Shown piece by piece: positions 6,504 to 21,112 of a DNA stretch of 33,851 nt. The translations under genes were made by a program, and so were the position numbers. The stretch comes from an uncultured Bacteroidales bacterium (GTDB lineage: Bacteria; Bacteroidota; Bacteroidia; Bacteroidales; Muribaculaceae), in assembly GCA_902762385.1 (NCBI GenBank), contig CACWNQ010000022.1:1-33851 (forward strand), in the 5' to 3' direction. The notes under the pieces were generated by a model. That model was not told the DNA's origin and made no database searches. It saw only the letters and a list, made by a program, of their open reading frames with translations. Every line of letters begins with the position of its first letter. Position 1 is the stretch's first letter.

Positions 6504-8201
6504 TTATTTTGCTCTATTCCTATTCAATATTTCTTGCTTAATAAATGCCTCAAGATTTTCGCTGGCTTTTATCTTATTCCTTATTCTTGTCTTAATGGTT
6601 TTTATTGAGTTCTTGGTATATCCTGTTGATATAGATATGGCATCATTGTTATACCCCAAGCATACCAGGCTTAGTATTCTTATCTCATTTTGATTTAACT
6701 GGCAATTGCTATCTTTTGTTAAGGAAGAGATAAAACCTGCCGATTTTTTGTCGGCAACATCGAAAATGATATCCCAATAATGATCATTGGCACTTGCTTG
6801 TGCAATAATGTTCTCTAATTCTTTAATGAAATCGGCACGCTTGACATCATAACTTTTATTCAATAGCGCATTGAAAGAATTGAAGTATTGGTTCAAGAAG
6901 TCCACATTATCTTGCTGTGACTTGTAATTGTGCTGCAAGAGGCTGTTTTTTTGCTTCTCTTGATTCAATTTGTCATAGGCAATATTGGTGTCTTTTATGA
7001 GTTCTTTCACATAAAACTGGTTATTATTAAGCTCTTTCACAAGATTCTTGAACTTTTGATCTTTACAAAAAAGATTTGTAATCAAGGTGATTAGAAATAC
7101 AATAAGAACAGCAATAATAAGAAAGAAGAAAGTCTTTTGCTCAGAAAAGTGCTTGTCTTTTTTATATTTAAGCTCGCTATCCATTTGTGCTTCTTTCTCA
7201 AAGATGAGATTCCGTTGGGATTTCGCTTTGATGGCATCGGATATTCTTGTGCCCAAATTTTGATAGAATAATGCTTCTTTTTCGTGTCCCTGCGCATTGT
7301 GAATATATCCATTAGCAAACGCCATCATCATCCTGTCGTAATCACTCATGGCAACTGTGTCAACTCTTGCTAAAAGAATTTTGGCAGAATCGGGCATACC
7401 CAATGCGGCATAAGCGTTGGCAGCATTAAAGAGCATGGCGTTAGAAGGGTTTGTGCCGTTGACACATTTTACAGAAGCATTCTTAGCATCAAGAAATAAC
7501 GAATCGAGAAAATAGGCCATTGAAAGTTCGTTGAGGTAAGAGTAGCTTGACGCAGTATCTCTCATTTCAATAGCCATAATCTGAGCCTGGGTAAGATATT
7601 TAATTGCTTTTTTCTTTTGCGATTCGCGACATAAATTGCCGGCTATGCCAAGACAGAACATAATCATTGGTCGGTCGCCCAGTCGTTCATAATAATAGAG
7701 GGCTTTCTCGAATTTCTCGAGGTCGAGGTTGTTGCTGGCGTAGTTGTCGTAGTAAAGCTTGCCCATGCGGAGGTTGAGCTGCGCGAGATTACGGTAGTCG
7801 GTGGTGTCGGCATTGTCTTCGGCCATCTTGTAGTAGCGCATGGCATCGATGGGGAGATTCATGTCCTCGTAGGCTCCACCTTTATATAATAGGGCGCGGG
7901 TGTAGTGCTCGCGGTTGTGGTTGTCGCTGTAATAATCAACGGCTTTGGTGATGAGGGTGTCGGTGGTAAGAGGGATGTTGCAGCGGAACTGCGCCTGTGT
8001 GAGTAAGAGCGCATAATATGCAAGGTTTTCTTCTCCTTGAAGTGAATCGCGGTTGATGGATTCGAGGATGGTTAGGGAACTGTCGGGACGTGTCCACATA
8101 AGCGTGTCGGCAAGCACCAGCCGCTTGTCAACACTTCGGCTGCAGCCCATCACAATAGTGATGAGCAGGATGGCAAGTAATATGTATAATGGTTGCCTCA
8201 T
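6504..8201 (-). CDS. Membrane-tethered TPR regulator with LuxR-type HTH
   Basis: A 565-residue protein when started at ATG 8201; the frame is open 27 codons further but runs back into the HAD gene. The chosen start gives a lipoprotein signal with lipobox IVMGC and Cys20. Then come tetratricopeptide-type helical repeats (about 45-330), one transmembrane segment (about 358-378), a coiled-coil stretch (380-433) and a C-terminal LuxR-type helix-turn-helix (about 501-558, with RILSLVCLGYNNDAISISTG). This predicts a periplasmic sensor linked through the inner membrane to a DNA-binding domain, an architecture known in Bacteroidetes. It starts 13 bp after the HAD stop codon and so is probably co-transcribed with the lipid-type enzymes upstream. 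GC content drops from about 50 percent in the first third to about 30-40 percent in the rest. Confidence 0.85.
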   Translation of the reverse strand: MRQPLYILLAILLITIVMGCSRSVDKRLVLADTLMWTRPDSSLTILESINRDSLQGEENLAYYALLLTQAQFRCNIPLTTDTLITKAVDYYSDNHNREHYTRALLYKGGAYEDMNLPIDAMRYYKMAEDNADTTDYRNLAQLNLRMGKLYYDNYASNNLDLEKFEKALYYYERLGDRPMIMFCLGIAGNLCRESQKKKAIKYLTQAQIMAIEMRDTASSYSYLNELSMAYFLDSLFLDAKNASVKCVNGTNPSNAMLFNAANAYAALGMPDSAKILLARVDTVAMSDYDRMMMAFANGYIHNAQGHEKEALFYQNLGTRISDAIKAKSQRNLIFEKEAQMDSELKYKKDKHFSEQKTFFFLIIAVLIVFLITLITNLFCKDQKFKNLVKELNNNQFYVKELIKDTNIAYDKLNQEKQKNSLLQHNYKSQQDNVDFLNQYFNSFNALLNKSYDVKRADFIKELENIIAQASANDHYWDIIFDVADKKSAGFISSLTKDSNCQLNQNEIRILSLVCLGYNNDAISISTGYTKNSIKTIKTRIRNKIKASENLEAFIKQEILNRNRAK

Positions 8202-8214
8202 GTGGCAAGGGCCT

Positions 8215-8934
8215 CTAAAGGCTGATGAGTGCTTGGGTAACCTCGGCAAGGGTCCTGATGGTGCCGGGATGCGTTTGGGCATCTTCGTCGGGTGTCCAGC
8301 CTTTGCCTTTGAGCCACAAGGTGTGGCAACCTATCGACTCGGCAGGGAGGATGTCTTTCTTGAGGCTATCACCCACAACCAGAACTTCATTAGGCTCCAT
8401 TTCAAGGACATCGACGCCCAACTTGAAAATCACAGGGTTGGGCTTGCGCACTCCCACCACTGCGCTTTCAATCACGCCCTTGAAATACTTGCGCAGGTCG
8501 AAGTCGCGCAACACGCTATCGACGTTGCCGTAGAAATTGCTCACAAGCATCATGGGGTAATGCCGGCTCAGGAACTCGAGCGTGGGCCTGGCCTCCTCGA
8601 TTGAAGAGCGAGCAGCATCGTAGCAGTATTGCGCCACCTGCTGTGCCAGCGGCTCGATGTCATCGCATTGCATATTGCCCTTGTCGACAAGGTCCTGCAA
8701 CTCGATGCGCATTTTCTTGAGAAGCAGGTCATGAAAGTTATCGTTGGGGAGGATGTGTCGCACGCGTGCAAGTTCACGCTCGGCCACTACGTAACTGTCG
8801 CGGAACTGCTCCTTGGTCACCGGTATGCCCGCGTGGCAATATCCGTCCCAAATCACCTCGCTCCAGTGGATGCCACGGCTGTCGATAGTGCCACCGTAGT
8901 CGAAGATAATGCCCTTGATTAGTTCAGAGTTCAT
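8215..8934 (-). CDS. HAD-superfamily hydrolase with DYGGT motif
   Basis: A 239-residue HAD-IA-like protein. Motif I is FDYGGTIDS with nucleophile Asp12, motif II is VSNF (Ser132), the motif III lysine is K164 in RKPNP, and motif IV is GDSLKKD (Asp189, Asp194). The second Asp of the usual DxDGT motif, the acid/base, is replaced by Gly14. Phosphatase activity on a small phosphorylated metabolite or lipid head group is the natural guess, but the substitution may slow or alter the chemistry. It sits 47 bp after the CDP-alcohol phosphatidyltransferase and 13 bp before the TPR/LuxR regulator. Specificity cannot be assigned from the sequence. Confidence 0.85.
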   Translation of the reverse strand: MNSELIKGIIFDYGGTIDSRGIHWSEVIWDGYCHAGIPVTKEQFRDSYVVAERELARVRHILPNDNFHDLLLKKMRIELQDLVDKGNMQCDDIEPLAQQVAQYCYDAARSSIEEARPTLEFLSRHYPMMLVSNFYGNVDSVLRDFDLRKYFKGVIESAVVGVRKPNPVIFKLGVDVLEMEPNEVLVVGDSLKKDILPAESIGCHTLWLKGKGWTPDEDAQTHPGTIRTLAEVTQALISL

Positions 8935-8944
8935 AGTTTCCCTT

Positions 8945-8991
8945 TACAACTTACTACTTATTACTTACTACTTACTACTTATTACTTAACT
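8945..8991. repeat. TTACTACTTATT-type spacer tract
   Basis: The 47-bp gap between the HAD gene and the CDP-alcohol phosphatidyltransferase is almost entirely tandem ACTTACTACTTATT-like units, running into the phosphatidyltransferase stop codon. Similar low-complexity spacers occur at 13879, 16213, 29093 and 32089. Confidence 0.6.
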
Positions 8992-9950
8992 TCGTATTTT
9001 CCGGCTTGGAGGTCAGCGGTAAGCTTCTTGCAGATGCGCTCATGACGACAAATCATGTAAACGAGCATAGTGTTGAGCACAATGAGCTCGAATGCAAAGT
9101 ACAGCCAAGGGATTCTAATGATCACCGAGATGAACATCGCAATGGTGCGGGTGTTGAAGGTGAGCATGTTAGTATACTTCATCAGTGGCAAGCTCAGCTT
9201 ACGGAAGTCGTCGCGGAACTGCTGTGGTGCCATTTGGTCGCCAAACTGCTTCTTGAGCTCACGGCGCAGGCGCTGCATGGCTGGCGTGAGGCGCTCCTGA
9301 TTAGCAGTGTAGTTGCGATAGAAGAACATGGTGATGCGCTTGAAACCCGACGATTGCTTGATTTGCTCATCGAGCTTCTCGGTGCTCTCAAGTTCGCTAC
9401 CGCCCTCGCCTTTAAGGAAGTAGAGGTGGAACTGGCGATAATAGTCGGCCATAGCACATTGCAGTGCATGACTCACACCGGCTGCGATTGCCATTGTCCA
9501 GATAATCCAGTGGTTTTGCGACTGAATGAAGAAGTCGCCCAGCCAAGCATCGCCAAAGTGCAGCTCGCGGAACACGAGAGCGAAGTAGATGGCAAAGAAC
9601 CACAGGTCGCCACTCACACCATCCAGGATGCGACCAATCTGCGAATACTGCTTAGTGAGTCGTGCCAACTGACCATCGGCGCTGTCGTAGGTATTGGCCC
9701 ATATAATGAGGAAAATTCCCACATAGTTAAGCCAGATGTAGGGTTGCGCTCCAAAGTAGAGCAGAATACCACCTCCCACGCCTAGGAAGATGGATGCTAT
9801 TGTGACAATGTTTGGCGAGATTCCAAGTTTGGCGAAGAGAGTCGCCCATGCGAAGCCAAGTGGTCTGTAGAACCACAGGTCGATGTGCTCCTCGGTATCC
9901 ATCGACTTGAGCGACTGGTTGTATTGTTCTTTTAATTCCTTGAAATTCAT
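8982..9950 (-). CDS. CDP-alcohol phosphatidyltransferase family protein
   Basis: A 322-residue integral membrane enzyme of the family that moves a phospho-alcohol between a CDP-activated donor and an alcohol acceptor in phospholipid synthesis. The signature is clear: Asp89, Asp92-Gly93, Ala96-Arg97, Gly106, Asp110 and Asp115. In the family pattern the last two Asp are separated by three residues; here there are four (GVSG), so the last Asp is displaced by one. Several hydrophobic segments follow. The C-terminal part (about 190-250) is a charged cytosolic insertion. It lies in a run with a nucleotidyltransferase, an ATP-grasp protein and a HAD hydrolase, which suggests the run makes and attaches a head group. 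Inositol-lipid synthesis, known in gut Bacteroidetes, is one possibility, but no inositol-phosphate synthase is in the window. Confidence 0.9.
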   Translation of the reverse strand: MNFKELKEQYNQSLKSMDTEEHIDLWFYRPLGFAWATLFAKLGISPNIVTIASIFLGVGGGILLYFGAQPYIWLNYVGIFLIIWANTYDSADGQLARLTKQYSQIGRILDGVSGDLWFFAIYFALVFRELHFGDAWLGDFFIQSQNHWIIWTMAIAAGVSHALQCAMADYYRQFHLYFLKGEGGSELESTEKLDEQIKQSSGFKRITMFFYRNYTANQERLTPAMQRLRRELKKQFGDQMAPQQFRDDFRKLSLPLMKYTNMLTFNTRTIAMFISVIIRIPWLYFAFELIVLNTMLVYMICRHERICKKLTADLQAGKYEVK

Positions 9951-9998
9951 GTTTCCTAAATATTGAAAAAAAGTTCCTAAATATTGATTTTCCTTGGG

Positions 9999-10859
9999 TC
10001 AGCGATTCTTGATAATGTTGATGATGCGCTTGGCAATGTGAGGTGCGGCATCATTGCGACATGGCGCAAAGCTTGGCCAGTCGTTGAAGTCGATGATTTT
10101 CACATCACCGTCGGAACCAACAATGCAGTCGCCGCCATAAATCTCGATATTGAGTTCCTCGGCAGCACGATTGCATATGTGCTTCAGGTTCTTGAGGTCA
10201 AACTTAAGTCCCTGCGACTTGCCATTAATAGCTTCGTGGCCATACTTGCTGTGACCCTCATCGAAAGGATAGAACCAGAAGAAATAGTTGGTTCCACGCA
10301 CTCCGTAGAACTTGATGAGGTCGCCCACCAAGTGCACATTGATTACAGCACGCTTAATGCCACGCAGAAAGTACTCCTGCAGCACCTCTTGTGCCTCCTC
10401 GCTGTGGCGCACGTAACTCACGTCCTCCTTGTGCATAGCGTGGAAGTCACCTCGCTTAATCCAGCAGCTCTGGAAGCCACTTTTCTCAAGTCGGTCTTTC
10501 ACCACCTCGTCGGTGTTGACAATGAGACTTTCGGGATAAGGGATTCCGTTTCCAAGCAGAATACGTGTCATGCGCTCTCGAGTACAGTTCTCGATACCGA
10601 AGCCAGAGTTAATGACAAGTCTGCCCTCGTTCTCGAGTCGCTGCAACTTGAGGATAGAGCTGTGCTCACGGCACATGTTCATTATTATATCCTCCTTGAT
10701 GTCGCCCTTGTTGAACTGCTCCTCACTGTAAGTGTTGACTATGCACCCCCGCTTGCGCAGCTGCTCGGCTACCGCATTGAAGATGGCTGTGTCGTTGCCT
10801 ATGTGATTGGGTGAATAGGCTCCTGCCCTCATCACCCCCGCAATGTTAATTTCGGCCAT
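9999..10859 (-). CDS. ATP-grasp superfamily protein, substrate unknown
   Basis: A 286-residue cytosolic protein with ATP-grasp features: an ATP-binding lysine region (CWIKRGD, Lys135), acidic residues in GGD (Asp244), and the metal-binding end motif IIDFNDWPSF with Asp257 and Asn259. The IIDxNxxP form resembles inositol phosphate kinases of the ITPK type as well as RimK-like ligases, so it could phosphorylate a polyol or join an amino acid. I cannot choose between these. It lies 23 bp after the nucleotidyltransferase and 48 bp before the CDP-alcohol phosphatidyltransferase on the same strand, which ties it to the same pathway. Confidence 0.75.
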   Translation of the reverse strand: MAEINIAGVMRAGAYSPNHIGNDTAIFNAVAEQLRKRGCIVNTYSEEQFNKGDIKEDIIMNMCREHSSILKLQRLENEGRLVINSGFGIENCTRERMTRILLGNGIPYPESLIVNTDEVVKDRLEKSGFQSCWIKRGDFHAMHKEDVSYVRHSEEAQEVLQEYFLRGIKRAVINVHLVGDLIKFYGVRGTNYFFWFYPFDEGHSKYGHEAINGKSQGLKFDLKNLKHICNRAAEELNIEIYGGDCIVGSDGDVKIIDFNDWPSFAPCRNDAAPHIAKRIINIIKNR

Positions 10860-10882
10860 AATATATTGATTAATGTGTGTAA

Positions 10883-11584
10883 TTACTTACCATTGATGAA
10901 ATCTTGTGCCACCGCGATGTCGCTAGCGTGGTCAACGTCGATAATCTTGTCGATGCTAAAAGCTTTAAGATTCATTCCAGCGTCGATGAGTGCACGCTGG
11001 AAGTTGCGCATGCGCGACACGCCACGCTCAATGCAGTCGTTGAGCACCGGGAAAGCCTTGTCGCTCATGGCATATACTCCACCCGACACATATTTTGCCC
11101 CATCAAAGGACTTGTCGCAGAAGGCCTTGATGTTCATGCGTCGGTCCACATCAACATATAGCGGTTTCTCGTCCTCGATGAATGGAGTCACGGCCCACAT
11201 GCCATCGTGGCGAGTGTCGGCTTCAAATGCTGCAATGTATTGAGCAAAGTCCTCTTCGCGGAAAATAGTGTCGACCGTGGTAAGGCAGAACTTACCAGGT
11301 TTCATCACCTTGCTCAACTCCCAAAAGCTGTGCATTGAACTGGGGGTGGACTTGACCACAACATTTAGAGGCACGTCAAGCCGCAGGGTGTCAAGAAACG
11401 CCCTGACCTCGGGCATGAAGTCGTTGATGATGACCGAGATGCTCTCGGCATTGCAGCGCATGAAAATATTCATGAGCCTCAATATCATGGGTTCACCGCT
11501 GAGTTCAACCAGTGGTTTGGGCTTTGCCACGCCCTCTTGTGCCAGTCGCGAGCCCTCGCCCGCTGCTATTATTGCATAATGCAT
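10883..11584 (-). CDS. Sugar- or polyol-phosphate nucleotidyltransferase
   Basis: A 233-residue protein with the N-terminal signature of NTP transferases: AAGEGSRL (residues 7-14), then PKPLVELSGEPMI. A central TTVDTIF segment replaces the common metal-binding LxxDxxF form, and DVDHASDI near the C-terminus supplies the second metal-binding Asp. Such enzymes activate a phosphorylated sugar or alcohol with CTP or UTP. Followed immediately by ATP-grasp and CDP-alcohol phosphatidyltransferase genes, it is a candidate for making the CDP-activated head group used by the latter. The exact substrate is unknown. Confidence 0.85.
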   Translation of the reverse strand: MHYAIIAAGEGSRLAQEGVAKPKPLVELSGEPMILRLMNIFMRCNAESISVIINDFMPEVRAFLDTLRLDVPLNVVVKSTPSSMHSFWELSKVMKPGKFCLTTVDTIFREEDFAQYIAAFEADTRHDGMWAVTPFIEDEKPLYVDVDRRMNIKAFCDKSFDGAKYVSGGVYAMSDKAFPVLNDCIERGVSRMRNFQRALIDAGMNLKAFSIDKIIDVDHASDIAVAQDFINGK

Positions 11585-11676: not shown

Positions 11677-12789
11677 TTAACCTAGCGGTTCCTCATCCTC
11701 TATCTTGGTTAGGTCGAGGACCACGTTATCCTTGCCCTTGTCGAAGTATTGCTTCTTGAGAGGGTTCTGTCGCATCTCATCCCATTGCTGACGGTTGCGA
11801 TATATATCGATAGCTTCATAGATTGCATGACGCATCGACTGCTCACTAGCAACACCCTGCCCCGCAATGTCATAACCTGTGCCATGGTCAGGGCTGGTGC
11901 GAACATAGGGCAATCCTGCTGTCACATTAACGCCTTCGTTCATTGAGATAACTTTGAAGGGGGCCAATCCCTGATCGTGATACATAGCGAGAATTGCGTC
12001 GAAACGACGGTACTGCCCGTTGCCGAAGAACCCGTCGGCAGCATAAGGGCCGAAGCACAGCACTTGCTCATCGTTGGCCTGCTGAATTGCCGGCTCTATG
12101 ATTTGTTTTTCCTCATTGCCAATCACGCCATTGTCGCCGCAATGTGGGTTAAGTCCAAGCACTGCGATGCGAGGCTTTTGAATATTGAAATCGCGCTGCA
12201 ACGAGTGGTCGAGAGCATGTAGTTTCTCGACAATCAATTCCTTTGAAATTGCTCCAGCAATTTGAGCTACTGGCACATGGGTAGTCACAAGCGCTACACG
12301 CAGCTTGTCGCTGGCAAGTATCATTAGAGCCTTGGCACCATCGCCCACACTGGCCTCGAGATATTCGGTGTGTCCTGGGAATGAGAACTCCTCGCTGTGA
12401 ATGTTCTCTTTATTGATTGGGGCTGTCACCAGAACGTCGATTACCCCCTTCTTGAGGTCGCTAACAGCAGCCTCAAGAGCCATAAAAGCAGCTTTACCTG
12501 CCTGCTTTCCTGGAAGTCCGAGCTCAATCTTCACCTCCTCGTTAATCACCTCGACCAGATTCACTGCACCGTCCTTGACATAACCAGCATTTCGCGTGGT
12601 ATTGACTTGAGCAGTAGTAATGCCGAGAGCTTTTCGATGGTAATTCAATATTTTGCTCGACCCATAAATGATGGGGGTGCACAACTCCAGGATGTCGTTG
12701 CTAGCGAAACATTTCATGATAACCTCATAGCCCACACCATTAGTGTCGCCCTGGGTGATACCTATACGTATTTTTCTTTCTTTACTCAT
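11677..12789 (-). CDS. pdxA: 4-hydroxythreonine-4-phosphate dehydrogenase
   Basis: A 370-residue protein matching PdxA, which oxidises 4-phosphohydroxy-L-threonine with NAD in the pyridoxal 5'-phosphate pathway. Diagnostic segments are GITQGDTNGVGYEV near the N-terminus, GHTEYLEA (a metal-binding His), HDQGLAPFKV, and RTSPDHGTGYDIAG near the C-terminus. Length is normal for the family, with a slightly longer tail. It is the first gene of a minus-strand run: the nucleotidyltransferase follows after 92 bp that contain a TCTAGA-ATA-TCTAGA repeat and an AT-rich spacer, so co-transcription is possible but not certain. Confidence 0.95.
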   Translation of the reverse strand: MSKERKIRIGITQGDTNGVGYEVIMKCFASNDILELCTPIIYGSSKILNYHRKALGITTAQVNTTRNAGYVKDGAVNLVEVINEEVKIELGLPGKQAGKAAFMALEAAVSDLKKGVIDVLVTAPINKENIHSEEFSFPGHTEYLEASVGDGAKALMILASDKLRVALVTTHVPVAQIAGAISKELIVEKLHALDHSLQRDFNIQKPRIAVLGLNPHCGDNGVIGNEEKQIIEPAIQQANDEQVLCFGPYAADGFFGNGQYRRFDAILAMYHDQGLAPFKVISMNEGVNVTAGLPYVRTSPDHGTGYDIAGQGVASEQSMRHAIYEAIDIYRNRQQWDEMRQNPLKKQYFDKGKDNVVLDLTKIEDEEPLG

Positions 12790-19172: not shown

Positions 19173-20222
19173 ATGTTTAGTTTTGCAAATCCCGAATTCC
19201 TTTATTTGCTGGTCCTGCTGCCAGCAATAGCAGGTCTTTACCTGCTTGAAAGGATGGCACGCAAGAAAAATATGGCAGCTTTCGGTCGAGAAGAACAGGT
19301 GCTAAATCTCATGCCCGACGTCTCAACCCGCAAGCCACTCATAAGACTCATTATCATTCTGTTGCTCCTCGCTATGGCCATCATAATCTTAGCACGCCCC
19401 AGAGCTGGAGCAGGCAAGAAAATGACTGGCGCCACCAATGGCATCGAGGTGGTAATTGCCATGGACGTTTCTAACTCAATGAACGCAAGCTGCACTAGCG
19501 ACCCTCAGGGAATGAGCCGCTTGCAGCGTTCAAAAATGATTATGGAAAAACTCATCGAGCGCCTGCGCAACGACAAGGTGGCGCTAGTGGTCTTTGCCGG
19601 TAGGTCCTACATGCAGATGCCCATGACCATCGATGGCCAGAGTGCCAAGATGTTTCTTAGTGGCATCAACACCTCGATGGTACCCCTTCAAGGCACAGCC
19701 ATAGGGTCGGCAATCGACATGTCGATGCAGGCATTCACTAAGGAGAGCAAAGCATCAAAGTCAATCATCCTCATTACCGATGCCGAAAATTTTGAGGACG
19801 ATGCTGTTGAGGCGGCAAAGAATGCCAGCAGCAACGACATCCAAGTCAACGTGATAGGCATAGGCACAACCGAGGGCGCTCCAATTCCCACCACCGACGG
19901 GGGATACATGGTCGACGACAACGGCCAAACCGTGCTTTCATGCCTCGACGAAGAGAAGGCACAACAAATTGCCAAGGCTGGCGACGGCACCTATGTTCAA
20001 GGAAGCGCCACCGACGCTGTCGAGGTTCTCGATGACACTCTCCAAAAACTTGCGAGCACTAATCTCTCACAAGTGACCTTCACTAAGAGCGATGAGCAAT
20101 TCCCTGTTTTTGCGTGGATTGCACTAGTACTGCTTATTGCCAACGTCCTTCTTCTTAACAGTAAGAATCCTTGGCTTGCAAAACATGATTTCTTCAAATT
20201 TAGAGAGAAAAAGCAACTATGA
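19173..20222 (+). CDS. batB: BatB, vWA membrane protein
   Basis: A 349-residue paralogue of batA with the same layout: two N-terminal membrane segments, vWA domain with MIDAS DVSNS (98-102), GTAIGSAIDMS and LITDAENFEDD, and one C-terminal membrane segment (about 305-325). It follows batA by 28 bp and overlaps batC by 4 bp (ATGA at 20219-20222), so the three genes are coupled. Confidence 0.93.
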   Translation: MFSFANPEFLYLLVLLPAIAGLYLLERMARKKNMAAFGREEQVLNLMPDVSTRKPLIRLIIILLLLAMAIIILARPRAGAGKKMTGATNGIEVVIAMDVSNSMNASCTSDPQGMSRLQRSKMIMEKLIERLRNDKVALVVFAGRSYMQMPMTIDGQSAKMFLSGINTSMVPLQGTAIGSAIDMSMQAFTKESKASKSIILITDAENFEDDAVEAAKNASSNDIQVNVIGIGTTEGAPIPTTDGGYMVDDNGQTVLSCLDEEKAQQIAKAGDGTYVQGSATDAVEVLDDTLQKLASTNLSQVTFTKSDEQFPVFAWIALVLLIANVLLLNSKNPWLAKHDFFKFREKKQL

Positions 20223-21112
20223 CTACTTCGTTAAAACTACTCATAAGCGTTATCGCCACAGCAGCGGCATTTTTGTCGCTAGCTGGATGCTCGGGCGAAA
20301 ACGAACCTGCACAACAAGACCCGTCGACAAAGGCCGAGCGCAACTTCATTCGCAACGGCAACAAGCTTTTTGAAGAAAAGAATTATGCCGAAGCCGAGGT
20401 CGAATTCAACAAGGCTCTTCAAGCCAATCCATCTTCGGCTGTGGCAGCCTATAACCTTGCCCTCACTCTTGCCATGCAGGCCGAGCCTAACGACTCGACA
20501 GGCATAATCCAGCACGCCGACTCTCTCTTCAACTTTGCTGCTTCAATAACAAAAGATAAGCAGCTCAAGGCCATGGCTCACTATAACATGGGCAATCTGG
20601 CCTACAACAGCAATCAATTTGACAAAGCAATCAACGACTACAAGAACGCCCTGCGCGCAATGCCTAGCGATGACGATGCTCGCTATAACCTGCGCATGGC
20701 TCAACTCAAGCAGCAAGAGCAACAGCAAAACCAGCAAAATCAGAATCAGAATCAGGACCAAAACCAAGATCAAAATCAAAATAAAGACCAGAACCAAGAT
20801 AAGAATAAAGACCAAAACAAGGATCAAAATCAACAGAATCAAGACAAAAATAAAGACCAGAACCAGAATCAACAAGATCAGCAAAATCAACAAAATCAAA
20901 ACCAGAACCAGAACCAACACCAACAGAATCAAGACCAGCAAAAGCAACAACAACAGCAACAACAAGCCAAAGCTGGCCAAATGGACGAGAGAAGCATGCA
21001 ACAAGTGCTGAAAGCCATGGAGAATAAGGAAAAAGAAACTCAGCAAAAGTTATATCAAATGGGAGAACGCCAGCGAGAATATGAGCGCCGCAACACTCAA
21101 AACAAGTGGTAA
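20219..21112 (+). CDS. batC: BatC, TPR lipoprotein with Gln/Asn-rich tract
   Basis: A 297-residue lipoprotein: signal with lipobox LAGC (Cys24), TPR repeats (about 40-160, for example AVAAYNLALTLAMQAEPN and AMAHYNMGNLAYNSNQFDKA), then a highly repetitive Gln/Asn/Asp/Lys tract (about 163-250). The tract is built from NQNQDQ and DKNKDQ units. It ends in a charged helix (MDERSMQQVLKAMENKEKE). BatC TPR proteins are part of Bat complexes. The tract is a likely length-variable, disordered linker. Confidence 0.9.
   Translation: MTTSLKLLISVIATAAAFLSLAGCSGENEPAQQDPSTKAERNFIRNGNKLFEEKNYAEAEVEFNKALQANPSSAVAAYNLALTLAMQAEPNDSTGIIQHADSLFNFAASITKDKQLKAMAHYNMGNLAYNSNQFDKAINDYKNALRAMPSDDDARYNLRMAQLKQQEQQQNQQNQNQNQDQNQDQNQNKDQNQDKNKDQNKDQNQQNQDKNKDQNQNQQDQQNQQNQNQNQNQHQQNQDQQKQQQQQQQAKAGQMDERSMQQVLKAMENKEKETQQKLYQMGERQREYERRNTQNKW
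20702..20970 (+). repeat. CAR/AAY-rich degenerate tandem repeat inside batC
   Basis: About 270 bp of imperfect AAYCARAAYCAR and GAYAARAAYAAR units encode the Gln/Asn/Asp/Lys tract of BatC. Length change by slippage is expected to keep frame because units are multiples of three. Confidence 0.7.

Follow-up and report, generated by a model that had tools for sequence, protein, structure and literature searches.

Four genes read from position 11584 down to 8215 on the minus strand of contig CACWNQ010000022.1 (assembly GCA_902762385.1), from an uncultured Bacteroidales bacterium of the family Muribaculaceae, very probably serve the synthesis of inositol lipids, as judged from the sequences of their products and from their genomic company. 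The 33,851 nucleotides analysed are referred to as the window, and the genes encode, in reading order, a nucleotidyl (NTP) transferase, an ATP-grasp protein, a membrane CDP-alcohol phosphotransferase (CDPPT) and a HAD-superfamily protein, the spacers between them measuring 23, 48 and 47 bp. They are likely to represent a member of the alternative inositol-lipid cluster of the B. vulgatus/Prevotella type; three of the genes have already been described as a putative pathway, and the novelty, which lends itself to testing, lies in the ATP-grasp gene as a constant step. A preliminary description of the locus, whose four-gene coordinates and residue numbers (Asp257 and Asn259 of the ATP-grasp protein) are correct, had proposed one operon for a CDP-activated, inositol-lipid-like head group, and this notion is supported. 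The same description held the pathway to be undescribed, which is not the case, since three of the four genes together with an inositol-phosphate synthase (MIPS) make up the alternative cluster that Heaver et al. proposed in 2022 (PMC9246714).

Gene identities and proposed pathway

The NTP transferase (10883..11584, like the other three genes on the minus strand) matches Pfam NTP_transf_3 at 39.4 bits (cut-off 27) and is a candidate inositol-phosphate cytidylyltransferase. Its best NCBIfam matches are nearly tied, namely a Thermococcales L-myo-inositol-1-phosphate cytidylyltransferase (NF041135, 42.4 bits), AglF (42.3 bits) and Arch_glmU (42.0 bits), and all lie far under the respective cut-offs of 580, 400 and 292.1. 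The profiles built for the NTP transferase (A4) and the CDPPT (A2) each took in two paralogues; the PDB search was repeated paralogue-free for the former (A6), and a paralogue-free CDPPT alignment (A7) was used once, later. The entry 4jd0 is a Thermotoga inositol-phosphate cytidylyltransferase. The ATP-grasp protein (9999..10859) belongs to no named family and is counted as a core member of the cluster on the basis of its AlphaFold model and structural matches, profile matches to inositol phosphate kinases (ITPKs) and co-occurrence with MIPS. The CDPPT (8982..9950; Pfam CDP-OH_P_transf, PF01066, 36.8 bits, cut-off 22) is a candidate for the enzyme that hands phosphoinositol to a lipid acceptor, and the last protein (8215..8934; Pfam Hydrolase, 57 bits, cut-off 26.4; motif I DYGGT) is a hydrolase or phosphotransferase of the HAD superfamily.

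In the pathway that we propose, MIPS, encoded elsewhere in the genome, would make inositol-3-phosphate, the NTP transferase would turn it into an activated CDP derivative, the membrane CDPPT would move phospho-inositol onto diacylglycerol or dihydroceramide, and the HAD protein would remove or relocate a phosphate, while the stage at which the NTP transferase acts would also be that of the ATP-grasp protein. In the preferred version the ATP-grasp protein would be an inositol-phosphate kinase that phosphorylates the head group a second time, either ahead of its activation or in the course of it, and the HAD protein would strip this phosphate after transfer to leave a plain phosphatidylinositol (PI) lipid. 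What was observed is the families to which the proteins belong, the order of the genes and their fusions, the co-occurrence with MIPS and a serine palmitoyltransferase (SPT) in the genome, and from these we infer every reaction.

Conservation of the gene set

The order NTP transferase, ATP-grasp, CDPPT, HAD is kept in 33 of 37 loci of other genomes, which stem from 36 genomes (G228 contributes two) and exclude the window's own locus, and the HAD gene is present in 34 of them. Chance co-occurrence of the four genes is rejected on the strength of this conserved order. The four loci outside the 33 are those of G137 and G011, which lie at contig ends, that of G588, where the genes form two separate units (NTP transferase with ATP-grasp, and CDPPT with HAD and MIPS), and the hybrid locus of G139 treated below. 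A flippase-like LPG_synthase_TM homologue is found on the surveyed stretch in 23 of the 37 loci. Among the 25 loci that came from a similarity search, 22 hold all four genes in the same order. Of the others, L032 has all four families, with the NTP transferase and ATP-grasp fused, the CDPPT first and MIPS immediately upstream; the CDPPT is accompanied by ATP-grasp in L031 and is the only one of the four in L033.

Fusions of the same kind recur. NTP transferase and ATP-grasp form a single protein at L032:9011-10501 (496 aa), L081:3910-5451 (513 aa) and L136:7890-9467 (525 aa), and at L134:6937-9399 the CDPPT is joined to them in a single protein of 820 aa. The arrangement points to the NTP transferase and the ATP-grasp protein acting at neighbouring steps on one intermediate.

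Whole-genome searches covered 198 genomes of the order and 395 of the phylum, and the Fisher p values given here are uncorrected for shared ancestry. Within the order, MIPS is found in 30 genomes, the ATP-grasp family in 24 and both in 23 (p 7e-23), so that MIPS accompanies ATP-grasp in 23 of 24 genomes and is present in 7 of the 174 genomes that lack it; across the phylum the corresponding counts are 63, 15 and 14, with MIPS in 49 of the 380 genomes without ATP-grasp (p 2e-11). One of the seven order genomes with MIPS and no ATP-grasp gene, G124 (L078), has a neighbouring gene whose product resembles phosphatidylinositol phosphate (PIP) synthase (NF052561, 357.7 bits, cut-off 350). The preliminary description had asked how often the four genes travel together in Bacteroidales, and the association is real, both in gene order and in the pairing of ATP-grasp with MIPS.

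Supply of inositol phosphate and of the lipid acceptor

The window genome has one MIPS (G000:C20:823-2130, PF07994, 340 bits), which lies apart from the cluster and is 79.5% identical to the MIPS of G025. In G025, which represents another genus of the family, the genes run NTP transferase, ATP-grasp, CDPPT, HAD, MIPS, with MIPS directly downstream of HAD. In 29 of the 37 related loci MIPS lies within 10 kb of the ATP-grasp gene. The earlier suggestion that the product may be different, made because no inositol-phosphate synthase is present in the window, thus loses its ground. An SPT is likewise encoded in the window genome (665.1 bits, NCBIfam cut-off 640), and ceramide is therefore likely to be available as an acceptor in this bacterium.

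The two ATP-grasp genomes without MIPS, G183 and G387, have another likely source of inositol phosphate and are informative. G183 has the ATP-grasp gene and no PF07994 match, and an actinobacterial-type INO1 homologue (PF01658, 71 bits, cut-off 27; TIGR03450, 374.5 bits, cut-off 638) is found beside HAD. G387 has no PF01658 match, keeps ATP-grasp and has a PfkB kinase beside HAD (L120:4114-5049), and in G545 a PfkB protein with an N-terminus similar to that of the G387 protein adjoins MIPS (L150:5523-6419); by their sequences both PfkB-type proteins are candidate inositol kinases. From the alternative sources in G183 and G387 the supply of inositol phosphate seems to be constant in every genome with the ATP-grasp gene, and the ATP-grasp protein is therefore probably not the supplier. 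Indeed a role as a simple inositol kinase, converting inositol to inositol phosphate, is disfavoured both by the fact that the protein accompanies MIPS instead of replacing it and by G387, which retains the gene despite the PfkB kinase beside HAD.

Comparison with known systems

The "putative alternative inositol lipid cluster" of Heaver et al. 2022 consists of an NTP transferase, a CDP-alcohol phosphatidyltransferase and a HAD protein beside MIPS, and the paper, which put the route forward on the basis of three genes, leaves it unconfirmed (PMC9246714). Phosphoinositol dihydroceramide (PI-DHC) was reported there in B. vulgatus and P. veroralis, both of which are without the BT_1522/23/25 genes. 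The window resembles this cluster in having the NTP transferase, CDPPT and HAD together and MIPS in the genome, and differs in that MIPS is unlinked and that an ATP-grasp gene stands between the NTP transferase and the CDPPT; according to the main text of PMC9246714, MIPS likewise lies apart from the cluster in P. copri. The cluster of B. vulgatus carries the tags BVU_RS13095, 13105 and 13115 (PMC9246714), and, from the tag numbering alone, the free numbers 13100 and 13110 fit an ATP-grasp gene and a flippase-like gene. The term "ATP-grasp" is absent from the main text of PMC9246714, and we found no paper linking an ATP-grasp gene to this cluster in the one open-access library searched.

The BT-type cluster (BT_1522, BT_1523, BT_1525, BT_1526) shares with the window the use of the MIPS product and an end in PI lipids, but it employs a PIP synthase (NF052561), a PgpA-type phosphatase and a PAP2-type PI-DHC synthase, whereas the window protein scores 31.2 bits against the BT_1523-type PIP synthase model NF052561 (cut-off 350) and no PgpA match (PF04608) is found in the window genome. 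The archaeal inositol-1-phosphate cytidylyltransferase/di-inositol-phosphate-phosphate synthase would likewise combine a cytidylyltransferase and a CDP-alcohol phosphotransferase by way of CDP-inositol, but the window genes are separate and the match of 42.4 bits is to be set against the NF041135 cut-off of 580.

The ATP-grasp protein: kinase or ligase

The ATP-grasp family has the signature KFY ... GGD ... DxNDWPSF, and its metal motif D257/N259 (D-x-N) is invariant in 30 of 30 members. ATP-grasp ligases usually have E-x-N at this position. The window protein shares its superfamily fold with the ITPKs and resembles them in the metal-binding D-x-N, while its overall predicted fold resembles RimK among the RimK/LysX/Ddl ligases. 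When the family profile was compared with PDB sequences, 6 of the 11 matched were ITPKs, with best E values of 3e-8 and 3e-7 in two profiles, the matches being fragmentary. We tentatively lean towards an inositol-phosphate kinase over an acyl ligase because of these profile matches, the D-x-N motif and the constancy of HAD; the last is a point for a kinase since HAD is constant although the route as drawn by Heaver et al. leaves no phosphate for it to remove.

The alternative that comes closest is that the cluster is the same inositol-lipid cluster and the ATP-grasp protein a RimK/LysX/Ddl-like ligase, which would join a carboxylate such as an amino acid to the head-group inositol or to the CDP form of it. 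This we consider possible if somewhat doubtful, and much of what weighs against a kinase speaks for it. The best structural matches of the AlphaFold model are ligases (RimK/Ddl), and there is no ITPK among the 50 structural matches listed, an absence which excludes nothing. Furthermore, the best ITPK profile match consists of three stretches, each of them weak (i-Evalues 0.003, 160 and 2.5), and the ligase PsnB follows close behind ITPK in the second profile (6.7e-7 versus 3e-7). No Pfam ITPK model was matched at E<=1 by any of 18 ATP-grasp members, which matched ten families, and RimK (PF08443) was touched by 3 of the 18 with a best E of 0.02. No ATP-grasp family in Pfam fits the window protein (best fits among the 18 members E 0.006 to 0.05), and the protein scores 23.9 bits against the RimK model TIGR00768, below the cut-off of 143.4. 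On the other side, a ligase is at odds with the D-x-N motif and with the sequence profile that puts ITPK first, it leaves HAD without an obvious task, and plain PI-DHC has been reported from species with the alternative cluster (PMC9246714). The preliminary description had spotted well that the protein is ambiguous between ITPK and a RimK-like ligase, since the sequence profile leads to the former and the predicted fold to RimK/Ddl. An enzyme other than a kinase or a ligase is less likely than either.

The proposed pathway must also accommodate G139, a member of the window's family, which pairs ATP-grasp with BT-type PIP synthase and PI-DHC synthase and has no close NTP transferase relative. 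At L079:134-4968 its order is ATP-grasp, GtrA, PIP synthase (NF052561, 272.1 bits, cut-off 350), PI-DHC synthase (486.3 bits, cut-off 480) and MIPS, with PgpA elsewhere. The notion that ATP-grasp acts only with the NTP transferase is thus not fully upheld, and the presence of ATP-grasp alongside the BT-type route limits models that tie it to the NTP transferase alone. Two further observations weigh against the pathway as drawn, namely the lack of linkage between MIPS and the cluster in the window genome and the distribution of the CDPPT. The CDPPT profile found 38 of the 198 order genomes at E<=1e-10, of which 28 with a best E<1e-60 were counted and 10 weaker ones excluded; 23 of the 28 have the ATP-grasp gene and 5 are without it, so that the CDPPT subfamily serves other pathways as well.

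Active sites of the HAD protein and the CDPPT

Motif I of HAD phosphatases is usually DxDx[TV]. The HAD protein of the window lacks the second aspartate (DYGGT, with glycine at Asp+2), a further point against the proposed pathway, and the change is general, since D[YF]GGT is found in 54 of 59 family members, one having LDTNGT and four being unmatched by the pattern used; plain phosphatase action is therefore not assured.

The CDPPT of the window reads DSADGQLAR...GRILDGVSG, so that of the full motif DX2DGX2AR...GX3DX3D the first half and the third aspartate are present and the fourth aspartate is glycine. In 65 strong CDPPT members, the window protein included and one truncated member without the motif left out, this position holds glycine 62 times, serine once and aspartate twice, the two aspartates being those of the paralogues at L080:379-1266 and L082:525-1406, and six distant matches of other kinds all keep the fourth aspartate. 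Because Heaver et al. found the B. vulgatus protein by the pattern DX2DGX2AR...GX3DX3D, the glycine in window-type CDPPTs is a point to check. Given that the changes are common to the families, the standard mechanism should be assumed neither for the CDPPT nor for HAD.

Other possible products

A soluble product of the di-inositol-phosphate type, for which the CDPPT would join CDP-inositol to inositol phosphate and HAD would dephosphorylate the result as in the osmolyte synthesis of hyperthermophiles, would explain the HAD step, and the Thermococcales bifunctional model is one of the near-equal top partial matches of the NTP transferase in NCBIfam while archaetidylinositol phosphate synthase is the best match of the CDPPT, all far below cut-off. 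It is nevertheless very unlikely, since the frequent LPG_synthase_TM homologue and the Mla-type genes found in 8 of 10 loci of the families f135 and f153 point to a membrane lipid, and since PI-DHC is reported from cluster-bearing species (PMC9246714). That the head group is CDP-activated but not based on inositol is more improbable still: the subfamily evidently reaches other head groups, as one CDPPT relative without an ATP-grasp gene sits with a glycerol-3-phosphate-cytidylyltransferase-like gene (L138), L080 and L082 carry a second CDPPT with its own distant NTP transferase, 5 of 28 CDPPT genomes are without ATP-grasp and MIPS is unlinked in the window genome, but MIPS is present in nearly all ATP-grasp genomes of order and phylum and mostly lies close by.

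Related clusters

In f135 and f153, which belong to other classes of the phylum and account for 10 loci (L122-L131), the eight loci with Mla-type genes hold homologues of MlaE and MlaD and of an ABC ATPase. Eight of the 10 loci, though not the same eight, have both a class-III aminotransferase and an oxidoreductase of the Gfo/Idh/MocA type, and 4 of the 10 have two tandem ATP-grasp genes. The best NCBIfam match of one of these oxidoreductases is inositol 2-dehydrogenase (68 bits, cut-off 355), and an amino-inositol lipid is a natural guess for the product.

The paralogous CDPPT and the second, distant NTP transferase of L080:379-2008 and L082:525-2153 lie directly upstream of the inositol cluster, together with what by eye is the end of an aminotransferase-like open reading frame (ORF), and may at a guess be a phosphonolipid set. 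At L138:6650-10704 the CDPPT relative and the glycerol-3-phosphate-cytidylyltransferase-like gene are accompanied by a short-chain dehydrogenase, an LPG_synthase_TM gene and an acyltransferase; no ATP-grasp gene was found in this genome when the 198 order genomes were searched for the ATP-grasp family, and by its gene content this is another CDP-activated lipid head-group cluster.

Neighbouring genes and repeats

Upstream of the NTP transferase lies pdxA of vitamin B6 synthesis (11677..12789, minus strand; TIGR00557, 377.5 bits, cut-off 290.35), as it does in all 22 loci that keep the full four-gene order in the similarity search (L009-L030); it is a conserved neighbour, which we do not count among the pathway genes. 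On the other side, a co-directional gene (6504..8201, minus strand) encodes a TPR protein which, as read from the sequence, has a lipoprotein-like start and a LuxR-like C-terminus, and which has no Pfam match. The preliminary description had supposed that this regulator may sense the product, but no homologue was found at E<=1e-8 in the 25 related loci, and among the ORFs of 58 related loci there was no blastp match at E<=1e-3, whereas the four cluster genes had 40 to 49 matches each. A function as the sensor of the pathway is accordingly rejected, the gene being outside the conserved unit.

The spacer between HAD and the CDPPT (window:8935-8981) is a short low-complexity repeat built of TAAGTAG units, which is matched in part at seven further sites in the genome; it is given no role, because the spacers of five relatives among the 25 loci are different sequences. 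Elsewhere, tandem repeats of 12-21 nt (window:20705-20940) code for a Gln/Asn-rich stretch within the ORF 20219-21112.

Implications

Since the gene order is kept in 33 of 37 loci and four loci have ATP-grasp fused to the enzyme proposed to depend on CTP, schemes for the alternative route that omit the ATP-grasp protein are probably incomplete, and its gene offers a specific enzyme target for testing that route. It is an unlikely but consequential possibility that an ITPK-type bacterial inositol-phosphate kinase works within head-group synthesis, such that inositol-3-phosphate would become doubly phosphorylated, be activated to CDP-inositol-phosphate and, once transferred, lose a phosphate through HAD. 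If this is true, the pair of kinase and phosphatase could shift the phosphate from ring position 3 to ring position 1 by way of the meso compound inositol-1,3-bisphosphate, and a CDP-inositol route could yield PI with the eukaryote-type ring linkage instead of its mirror form. In other classes of the phylum, amino-inositol lipids would then be the product of the same core together with Mla-type genes, an aminotransferase and an enzyme resembling inositol dehydrogenase.

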